Origin: Planctomycetota bacterium
Lineage (GTDB): Bacteria > Planctomycetota > SZUA-567 > H5-PLA8
Assembly (NCBI GenBank): GCA_027493525.1
Contig: JAOSKN010000001.1
Location: 1,488,001-1,552,000 of the forward strand
Direction: 5' to 3'
DNA length: 64,000 bases
Shown here: positions 14,427 through 59,785 of the stretch, piece after piece
Position numbering within the stretch: the stretch's first letter is position 1
Layout: the number at the start of each line of letters is the position of its first letter
The notes under the pieces: model-generated
The model's database searches: none
Seen by the model: the letters and a program-made list of their open reading frames with translations, nothing else
What the model was told of the DNA's origin: nothing
Made by a program: the position numbers and the translations under genes

Positions 14427-14595
14427 CCAGTGCCCTGTAACCGAAATCCGTTGCGCGTTTTGGGGTGCTTTTGACCGTGCTCTTCGTTCCGCTCCGATCG
14501 TCGTATCTTCTCGATACGTCTATTCTCCGCGTGCCTCGATCACGGTCAAAATCCCTCCCCAACCGCATCAACGTGTTTCAGTTCCAAAACACTAG
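14427..14595. mobile_element. 168-bp-class foldback element, copy A
   Basis: A nested palindrome centred at 14510: TTTTGACCGTG (14469-14479) pairs with CACGGTCAAAA (14541-14551), and an inner hairpin CGTATC/GATACG spans 14502-14518. Read on the minus strand, bases 14551-14468 align without gaps to 59625-59708 of copy B at 65 of 84 positions, including AACGAAGAGCACGG and CGTGATCGAGGC. The outer ends also match (CTAGTGT..TGG at one end, CACTGG against CACTAG at the other). It fits a decayed non-autonomous MITE. It fills most of the 356-base gap between divergent genes; the rest (14596-14769) shows nothing else. Confidence 0.7.
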
Positions 14596-56695: not shown

Positions 56696-59456
56696 TCACG
56701 GCATCCACGACCCGACCAGTTTGAGTTCGCCATTCTCGCCTGCCACGTGCCCGTTGCCGGGCTTCTCGAGCGTCCACGTCGAACCGCCAAAGGCCGCCGA
56801 GGCGCCGCCGCTCCAGACCAAGCGTTCGAGTTTCCCATCCTTCAGCCTCGCGACGAGCACGCGCGCGTCGGACTCGAACCCGCCGGCCTTCCAGGCGCCG
56901 GCCGCGTGCGCGACGTAGACGCGCGTCTCGGCGCCGTCCTTCTCGAAGGCCGCGCCGGCGAGGCCCGGTCCGCCGTCCTCGAGTTTGCGGAGCTTCTCGA
57001 CCGGCGCGCCCCAGGGCGTGACCTGGAGCGCCGCGGCGAAATCGGCTACCTTGGCCTTCTGGCGCAGCACGACGATATGGTCCTGGTCCGGGCCAAGGCA
57101 AACGGCGGCCTCCTGCCCCGGCGCGCCCGCCCAGCTAACGGTGAGTTCCGTCTTCGGCGTCTTCCACGCTTCGCGCAGAAGTTCGGCCGCGGATTTCACT
57201 TCGCCGACGATCAGGAGTTGATAACCGTCGTGAGTGCCGAGCGGCATCAGCTCCTTTCCTTCGATGAAGATCTTATCGGCGCCCACCAATTGCCCCCCGG
57301 TAGCGATAGGTGACCGCCCAGTCGTGCTCCCGCGCGCTGGCGCCACGGTACAGGTCCACCAGCGCGTCGCCGGTGAAGACCGCGGTACGGTCCAGCAGCA
57401 CGCCCGGATACGCCCCGGCGGCCTCGCCGCGCATCAGCTTCACAGGCCCGGCGTCGTGGAAACAGAGCAGCTTGCCGTCGCAGGCCATCTGGCTGCGTCC
57501 GTCGACGATCATGGTGTTGTGCGCAACGGTCTGCACGGTCCACTCGTGATGCTTCGGATCCTCGTAGCGGTGCATCGAGGGCTCCCCGCCCAGTTCATCG
57601 CCTGCGGCGTAGACGATCAGGTTTAACTTGTCGAAGTGCCCGTGCGGCCCGCCGTGGCGGCCGTAATCCATCAGCACGAAGGTCTCGGGATCGCGCAGGA
57701 TCGCGTAGCCGAGCGTCTTGAAGACGGTGCTGGGATACTGGATCTTCTCGGGCTCGGGAAGTTTGTCGTACACGACCGTCGGATAATAGACCGAGGGGCT
57801 GATCACGAGCTGCCGCGGAGCGACATTGACCAGGTAGGCATAGGCCGGATCGCGGTAGCGCAGCCACGCGTAGTCGTAGATCATCGCCTGCCAGTCGTCG
57901 AGTCTGGCGCGGCCGGAGTCGTTGATGCCCGCGCAGGTGCCGTCGGGGTAGGCGTAGCGGAAGACCGCGTCGAAGGGCAGCTTGATCCGGCAGTCCTCGA
58001 AGCCCCACAGGTCCACGCCCTGCCGCGCGGCGACCTCGAGCACCGCCGTGAGCGCTTGCAGCGCGAACATCTGGTAGCCGATGGTCCCCTCGCCCCACAT
58101 GCCGTCTTCGCCGATTCCGGCCTGCAGGTTCTTCTTGGTGTCCCAGACGGCGAGGTCCACCAGGTCCTTGTCGCCCAGCACCGCGCCGCCCATGATCGTG
58201 GCGAGGTTGTAGAAATTAGTCCAGTTGCCGACGACGGTGGGCTTGGCCGGGCGCGGCGGCGTGGCGGAGCGCCAGTCGGGCTTGGACTTGTCCAGTTCCG
58301 CCGCGAGGGCCTTGGGATCCTTGAGGTGGATCATCGTCAGGCACGGGCGGATCAGGCCGTTCTCGATCCTGGCGCGCTCTTCCTCGCTGAGCGTCTCGTG
58401 GATGCAGTCGAAGGCCACGAGCTGCGGGATCAGCCACATCGCCTCGCTGAGGCGCTGCGCCATCACCTTCGACGTGTCGCTCCTGTTGACGCCCTTGTGG
58501 ACGGGGTACTGCTCGTAAAGCCCCGCGTAGCCCAGCACGATCTCTTTCGCCTTTTCGGCATACTTCTTCTCCCCCAAGAGCGCGTAGGCCACGCCCAGGC
58601 CTCCGGCGTACTTGCTGAGCAGGTCGTGTTGCTTGGCCAGCGGGTCGCCGCGGTCCTTGAGCTGCGCGCCGGGACCCTTCGGGTCGGGAAACTCGACCTT
58701 GTGCGCGTACGCCTCCTCGCCGCGGGCCTTCAACGCCTCGTACGCCTCCTTCGCGCGCTCGGACGTCGAGATCTTTTCCTTCAGTTGCTTCAGTTCCTCG
58801 GGCGTGAGCAGCAGGCACGGATGCTGGCCGGGCTCGGCCTTCGGCGGCATGTGGACCTTTTCGGGTCGCGCGGCCTGCTCGTACGATGGGATATCCACGT
58901 AGGCCGGCGCGGCCGGATCGTGGCCGGGCAGCGCGAGCTTCGCGCTCAGGTCGGCCGTCGTCCAAACCGCGACCTCCCCCAGGCCGCCCCATTTCACCTC
59001 GCCGGGATGGTGGCTCTTGACGGTGATCTTGAACGAGCGAACCTCCTTGCCGATCGCCAGATCCTGCCACGCAGGCTTGCGCTTCTCGGGGCGCTTGAGT
59101 TCCAGCGTCTGCTCCAGCTTGGTGCCGTCGTCGAGTTCGACCACGATCTCCTTCGCGGCCTCTTCCTTGTCGTAGTCGCTGGCCGAGAACGAGAGCTTCT
59201 CGATGGGCAGCTTGTCGAGAAGTTCGACTACGAATGTGTACGGCGCGCCTTCCAGCACGCAGCGGCTGTGCACGTTCCCATCGAAGGCGTTCTCGGGCGG
59301 CGTCTCGGCGTTGCGGCGAACGTCCGGCGGCAGTTCCAGCGCGACCCGCGCGCCGTACTCAGGGAGCGCGGCGTTGAGCAGCCTGGGCGACGCTTCGCCG
59401 GCTCCGGCGGAGAGGGCGCACATGGCCAGACAGGACGACAGGAAACCGAAGCGCAT
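56696..59456 (-). CDS. Heparinase II/III-type polysaccharide lyase (frameshifted)
   Basis: About 919 residues after joining; ATG 59456 has GGGAGG 7 bases upstream and opens a signal peptide (1-21). Residues 30-180 look like a discoidin-type sugar-binding domain (NAFDGNVHSRCVLEG; GLGEVAVWTTADL). An alpha-toroid spans about 200-470 (LTPEELKQLKEKISTSERAK; NWTNFYNLATIMGG). A lyase beta-domain follows with YGRHGGPHGHFDKLNLIVYA and VAHNTMIVDGRSQM. The frame breaks in the poly-G at C6 57293-57298; one G fewer gives YRGQLVGADKIFIEGKEL. Cuts uronic-acid-containing glycans; exact substrate unknown. Confidence 0.85.
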
Positions 59457-59785
59457 TTTGCGGACCTCCCAGAACATTGCTAATCTTCACAAAATACTAC
59501 ACCATCAACCCATTGTTAAATTAGCTAATAATCAAGCGCCATGGATAAAGTCCAGCCGATTAGAAATCCCCTGGACCGGTGCTAGTGTAGTGGTTCACTC
59601 AGCTTGACGTTTATGCGCCGGTCATTTTGGTCGTGATCGAGGCGCGTGAAGGGGCGACGTATCAGGCAGATACGGCCACCGGAACGCAACGAAGAGCACG
59701 GCCGAAAGGGCCAAGCAGAAACGTCAAGAAGGGTGAGCCACTACACTAGGATGCCGAGTCCAACCTTTATATGGAGCGCTTCGCG
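59457..59785. other. Gap filled by a foldback element
   Basis: 329 bases between divergent genes. Besides the foldback element at 59582-59749, the first 120 bases are AT-rich (several ATTA/TAAT stretches) and may hold the lyase promoter, but no clear hexamers are seen. Confidence 0.5.
59582..59749. mobile_element. 168-bp foldback element, copy B
   Basis: Terminal inverted repeats start with the perfect 12-mer CTAGTGTAGTGG (59582-59593) against CCACTACACTAG (59738-59749), and extend imperfectly inward for about 31 bases (CTTGACGTTT against AAACGTCAAG). A central hairpin CGTATC-AGGCA-GATACG (59658-59663 with 59669-59674) is centred on the element. CTAG may be a 4-bp target duplication. No transposase. 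The core 59625-59708 matches copy A. It ends 36 bases before the acyl-CoA ligase start. Confidence 0.85.

Follow-up and report, generated by a model that had tools for sequence, protein, structure and literature searches.

About 100 short elements in the genome of this Planctomycetota bacterium are probably MITEs that have one conserved 83-nt core in common, predicted to fold, and that carry apparently interchangeable ends likely recognised by different transposases acting in trans. By its features, as read from the DNA letters, the family is a MITE of a variant kind, in that its lineage appears to be defined by the core and not by the ends. The initial annotation of the window (the whole 64,000-nt stretch that was analysed) had left the choice between a MITE and a structured RNA or regulatory element. 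The MITE is supported by 100 core matches, target duplications, inverted repeats and three end types with matching transposons. Of the second option, the structure stands, as the stems covary, and a host function is not supported: there is no Rfam match, no orientation bias and no significant G-U preference.

Copies in the window and in the genome

Both elements described in the window are present where they had been placed (Table 1). Their cores agree without gaps at 65 of 84 positions (14551-14468 on the minus strand against 59625-59708 on the plus strand), and the runner-up ungapped placement of the A core on the same strand of the window, with a score of 48, is that of A against its own palindrome. 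When copy A was used as a query against the whole genome, copy B was matched at E=2.3e-12. The central CGTATC/GATACG hairpin is likewise found in both copies. The sequence CGTATCNNNNNGATACG is exact at copies A and B and occurs at no other place even with two mismatches; since 1.6 loose matches are expected by chance, the hairpin letters alone are little proof. Two details of the first description required correction. The sizes of 169 and 168 bases become 163 and 162 bp once the target bases are left out, and the shared ends, initially read as CTAGTGT..TGG, represent a TA inside CTAG, with CA in place of TA at one end of copy A.

Table 1. Coordinates of the two elements in the window and of their parts
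Feature	Position	Strand	Remark
Copy A, a 163-bp element of type A (target bases excluded), single long imperfect palindrome	14430..14592	-	Nine more full-length relatives, 85-91%, in a whole-genome search
CTAG target, one end of copy A (TA = 14593-14594)	14592..14595	.	Target pattern of the type
Opposite target site of copy A, reading CCAG after decay	14427..14430	.	CTA..TGG on its own strand in the target tally
Copy A core of 83 nt, made up of an 11-bp stem, two internal loops and the central hairpin	14469..14551	-	
Copy A second loop motif GCGGAACGAAGAG	14480..14492	-	
Copy A stem end and first loop motif GTGATCGAGGC	14533..14543	-	
Copy A central CGTATC/GATACG hairpin	14502..14518	-	
Copy B, a 162-bp element of type B (target bases excluded)	59585..59746	+	One more near full-length relative, 96%, in a whole-genome search
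CTAG target, left end of copy B	59582..59585	.	
CTAG target, right end of copy B	59746..59749	.	
Copy B core, 83 nt	59625..59707	+	
Copy B stem end and first loop motif GTGATCGAGGC	59633..59643	+	
Copy B central CGTATC/GATACG hairpin	59658..59674	+	
Copy B second loop motif ACGCAACGAAGAG	59684..59696	+	

A family of two copies, as first proposed, is far too small. The covariance model R1, built from 32 cores, gives 107 matches at E<=10 in the 7.46-Mb genome, 100 of them at E<=2.5e-5, where the E-values from the self-built models used here (R1 and a second model, R2) are rough. The initial annotation had named a lack of further copies in the genome as one observation that would count against its claim; the search returned 100 strong core matches, and the claim survives. 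The extracted set comprises 98 copies and does not include C2:167458 and C3:1889741, which are strong R1 matches.

Outside the common core, the arms fall into at least nine types with distinct terminal inverted repeats. Among the 98 copies, type F is represented by 33, H by 11 with a single core (a count of 15 for H includes four composite halves), A by 10 including the window copy, C by nine, D by eight, J by four, E by three, and B and G by two each. The remaining cores comprise ten in five composite elements and six that are chimeric or degraded. The length is nearly constant: 79 of the 82 single-core elements with both ends found measure 160-166 bp, and the other three 150-155 bp.

The composite elements consist of two head-to-head cores about 20 bp apart between H-like ends and are found in three genomes of the family, at L151, L152, L155, L134 and L168 in the genome studied, at L103, L108 and L112 in G001, and at L111 in G004. 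Tandem arrangements were also observed. An A and an H element with one common CTAG stand side by side at two unrelated places, L038 (C2:1281071-1281401) and L039 (C1:917505-917836), and a D and an H element are likewise in tandem at C3:1152589-1152900.

Targets, ends and matching transposons

Insertion of the elements is real. The target of type F is CTNAG, and the same N stands at both ends in 26 of the 29 copies with both ends readable (G in nine, A in six, T in six and C in five; one quarter expected to be identical, p=4e-13), which indicates a 3-bp TNA duplication and independent insertions. Among the 49 copies of the other types, TA is found at both ends in 32 and the full CTA..TAG in 22, while in the rest the target has decayed at one or both ends. 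The ten cores from the five composite elements were removed from these counts of ends and decay. The CTAG target duplications that had been suggested as a check are present, in the form of TA in CTAG for the non-F types and of TNA in CTNAG for type F. In genome G001, the gene to the left of copy B (56805-59376 in the window) is kept and the right-hand gene (59771 onward) is not beside it; because gene order is broken near copy B, an empty-site comparison for this copy is uninformative.

The search for transposons with matching ends was successful for types E, F and H and returned none for types A, B, C, D, G and J. For the types of copies A and B, the view that the elements are not tied to a visible transposase still holds. 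For type E, the same genome contains two IS630-type (PF13358) transposons with the end TAGTGCCCCTTGACC, which agrees with type E in 13 of 14 bases; one of the two directly adjoins an E element, and its frame is broken up. For type F, the genome G003, of the same family as the one studied, contains an IS630-type transposon whose open frame spans 395 aa and which has the type-F end AGTACAGCGCCGCAGAAGT on both sides inside a TTA duplication. This exact string also stands at some F copies of the genome studied, and the core is absent from G003 by both R1 and R2. For type H, the start of an IS5-type (DUF772) transposase frame in G004 lies some 75 bases inward of TAGCAGCCCGTTGAAAAAGGGAGCGG, which is identical to the right arm of H over 26 bases; this transposon runs off its contig, so that one end and part of the interior are seen. 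Plasmids of Mesorhizobium and Sinorhizobium carry CTAG-flanked 1.5-kb stretches with similar ends (two mismatches to H in 18), and the first rhizobial stretch is annotated as IS5 family and matches DUF772 and DDE_Tnp_1. A search of plasmids for type-J ends gave nothing useful.

As far as the sequence of the planctomycete transposons extends, R2 detects no core in them, at E<=1 for L061, L062 and the G003 transposon L211 and at E<=0.1 for L290. Its best match inside the Sinorhizobium stretch reaches 12.0 bits (E=0.05). Since the E and F ends are those of IS630-type transposons, the H ends those of an IS5-type transposon, and the core is missing from the parts seen, the ends can be assigned to two transposase families or more, and the core to none seen.

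Two further transposon regions were recorded. L293 (G055:C65) is an IS5-type transposon with ends TAGCAGCCTGTCGGAGTT, situated about 115 bases from a core-bearing element. L204 (G020:C252) is an IS630-type gene region with weakly type-A-like ends, TAGTGTTCCGTAAAG and TAGTGCTGTGTAAAG, so that the type of copy A may have a distant partner in it.

If the core were a passive filler, short same-ended elements with other interiors should be common. In the genome studied, all 15 convergent H end pairs less than 400 bp apart enclose the core, as do 28 of the 31 F end pairs within the same distance, which gives 43 of 46 for the two types combined. One of the three coreless F pairs overlaps a weak R1 match (C3:591097, E=0.1). 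Unpaired single ends number four for H, two of them without a nearby core, and 26 for F, 18 of them without, the F ends being counted at places with up to two mismatches. At up to three mismatches, the F-end pattern occurs at 151 places and the reversed pattern still at 30, so that some of the single F ends are due to chance.

In the proposed mechanism, each transposase would cut its own type at the ends and paste it into CTAG or CTNAG. The element itself would be non-autonomous and would rely, for movement in trans, on any transposase able to read its ends. A new type would arise when the ends of a different transposon become joined to the core, probably via recombination or template switching inside it. 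Three chimeras in which two types are joined inside the core (G/A at C3:676814, F/E at C1:763929 and H/F at C3:1478272) show the kind of exchange by which the core could gain new ends.

The family could also be an ordinary MITE lineage derived from one ancient transposon, in which the ends diverged stepwise together with their transposases, without exchange, and the core is what remains of the parent. Such a descent would fit the TAGTG or TAG start and the CTAG-like target seen in most end types. It would also fit the gradation within the arms, which change from the outside inwards, as the inner-arm sequence (TATGCGCCGGT..CATTTTG) is common to types B, D and F, and inner arms are likewise common to A and C and to E and G. 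A single ancestor is nevertheless unlikely, because the ends of E and F and those of H lead to two different transposase families, the target duplications differ (TA and TNA), chimeric copies exist, and the matching transposons have no core in their seen parts.

Fold of the core and gene context

The fold used for the alignment comprises a stem of 11 bp, then an A.G mismatch and two pairs, a GA x GAA loop, one G-C pair, the GC x AA loop and finally an inner stem. Between types, the core stems differ on both sides and the two internal-loop motifs stay. The alignment A3 includes 36 sequences across types, genomes and phyla. Its paired cells amount to 96.9% of 576, a share inflated by rows partly picked by pairing score, compared with 74.9% after shuffling and 37-45% when the sequences are slid. 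Changes on both sides affect 13 of the 16 pairs. The covariation of the hairpin stems, which the initial annotation had proposed to examine, is present between families: double-change cells number 103 against 23.9 in shuffled alignments, and none of 500 shuffles reaches 103. Over six types, divergence in the loop motifs is about half as fast as elsewhere (0.025 versus 0.052-0.061). Type D is the exception, with faster divergence in the loop motifs (0.065 versus 0.029-0.036 elsewhere). In columns 15 and 70 of A3, the unpaired loop letters seem to covary, G with A or A with C (CGAGG/ACGAAG versus CAAGG/ACGCAG), much as if they formed a non-standard pair that is retained.

As an independent check, a pattern search of 84,980 genomes by the two loop motifs alone returned ten loci, eight of which pair as predicted. 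At L179, L180, L181, L182, L184, L186 and L188, 9-11 of the 11 stem positions pair, and L185 folds alike; the stems of L183 (4 of 11) and L187 (6 of 11) do not pair. The stems of L179-L182 and L186 have little or no sequence in common with the window. L184 and L188 sit in genomes also reached by other searches (G004 and G055). The pairing count leaves out L185, which is near-identical to L186; C3:1323714 could not be placed.

A location directly upstream of a gene start, reported for copies A and B, is not general for the family. With a rough gene caller, 25 of the 98 core places lie between convergent genes, 35 between genes of the same direction and 15 between divergent genes, while 12 overlap a gene call and 11 are incomplete. 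A comparison of G-U with A-C decay gave 21 versus 8 kinds in a first count on the core stem and 68 versus 54 (p=0.12) in a fairer within-family count; with composite halves removed, the preference for G-U is not significant (62 versus 53 kinds, p=0.23), and RNA-level selection based on this comparison was dropped as support. Rfam 15 has no match to the window at the gathering score and none to 12 loci at E<=1.

These data bear on the possibility that the core is a cis-regulatory RNA useful to the host, spread by transposition and kept for mRNA processing or insulation, as proposed for NEMIS and ERIC. ERIC and NEMIS RNA affect mRNA, according to the available part of PMC2229807, and the strong stem covariation of the core would suit such a role. 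The ATCGAGG strand also folds better than its complement, at 100 of 106 loci with RNA parameters and at 103 of 106 with DNA parameters. Since L183 and L187, whose stems do not pair, show the same difference, strand stability is not taken as proof. As the elements at same-direction gene pairs are oriented 17 sense versus 18 antisense, by rough gene calls, and the G-U preference in decay is not significant, a regulatory role for the host is distinctly improbable. Instead, the lack of a significant G-U preference and of gene orientation bias, together with the slow loop motifs, is read here as a sign of selection on spread via a folded single strand and not on a function for the host at the individual sites. 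The core may thus help the element to spread when one strand of it, as DNA or RNA, is folded.

It is scarcely credible that the pairing arose only through palindrome correction and gene conversion between copies, without selection on the fold. Copies within a genome can convert, and the chimeras show exchange, yet palindrome correction should erase the internal-loop mismatches. These belong to the least variable positions and are retained in other phyla, in which the stems have no common sequence.

Spread across phyla and likeness to known repeats

The core is detected by R1 in eight of 60 genomes and by R2, at E<=0.001, in 62 of 294 Planctomycetota genomes and 54 of 209 genera, the genome studied being included in each case; copy numbers from the R2 scan are lower bounds, as 15 candidates were scored per genome. 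In the genomes behind the pattern loci, R2 at E<=0.01 finds 67 cores in a Planctomycetota MAG (G309), 51 in a Chitinophagales MAG, 28 in a Desulfofustis MAG, 15 in a Pelomonas aquatica isolate, three in a Pseudomonadales MAG, one in a delta-proteobacterial MAG (E=0.003), one in a Defluviitaleaceae MAG and none in a KSB1 MAG, where MAG contigs can be contaminants, above all in the case of the single Defluviitaleaceae copy. In terms of phyla, several copies are thus present in one Bacteroidota and one Desulfobacterota MAG and in an isolate of the Pseudomonadota. Elsewhere too, the ends differ by lineage, and clear inverted ends are found at some loci and not at every one. At L249, L256 and L260 of Pelomonas, a further conserved stretch, GTCTGCGGCGTTGCAAATCCTCGCCGGG, lies downstream of the core element and resembles a backward loop-motif pair.

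In the available part of PMC2229807, bacterial MITEs are characterised as palindromes of 100-200 bp, for the most part with TA at the ends. Among them is RUP of Streptococcus pneumoniae, about 107 bp long and present in about 108 copies, with a TA target and ends like those of the IS630-type transposon IS630-Spn1 (PMC2229807). Type E has the same relation to the IS630-type transposons of its own genome. Compared by description, RUP differs in having one end type and, in the portion of the text available, no reported conserved core, whereas the present family has one core and at least nine end types. Correia/NEMIS elements of Neisseria are similar short TA-ended palindromes, and R2 aligns one copy over the whole centre in the right register, with only 8.6 bits (E=0.5 in 9,900 bases, E=0.006 in the 116 bases alone). 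ERIC of enterobacteria is also a short TA-ended palindrome (available part of PMC2229807). As a member of the family it was rejected on two E. coli copies, of which L278 scores 2.0 bits (E=5.3) and L277 has no R2 match over the element. REP/REPIN sequences are likewise high-copy extragenic imperfect palindromes. The present family differs from them, as REPs measure 20-40 bp in the accessible text of PMC3733652 and the elements here measure 160-166 bp, with inverted ends and a duplicated TA or TNA. In the available part of a 2024 review (PMC10969869), there is no mention of IS630, of an "internal sequence" or of a "different TIR", and a search of an open-access collection by motif letters and by topic returned no description of the core or of end swapping.

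On a wider scale, there is about an even chance that a cross-phylum lineage defined by the folded core forms a persistent selfish unit, which repeatedly swaps its ends between unrelated transposases, of IS630 type and IS5 type, as its interchangeable hosts, and of which some classical repeats such as Correia may be remote branches.

MITEs are usually sorted by their ends and viewed as relics of one transposon. The model R2 offers a means of collecting elements of the present kind across bacteria, and the family raises the question of what recognises the two-loop hairpin and why nearly all short H and F end pairs carry the core in this genome. A conserved interior combined with ends that vary, even between transposase families, suggests that the interior works for the element.
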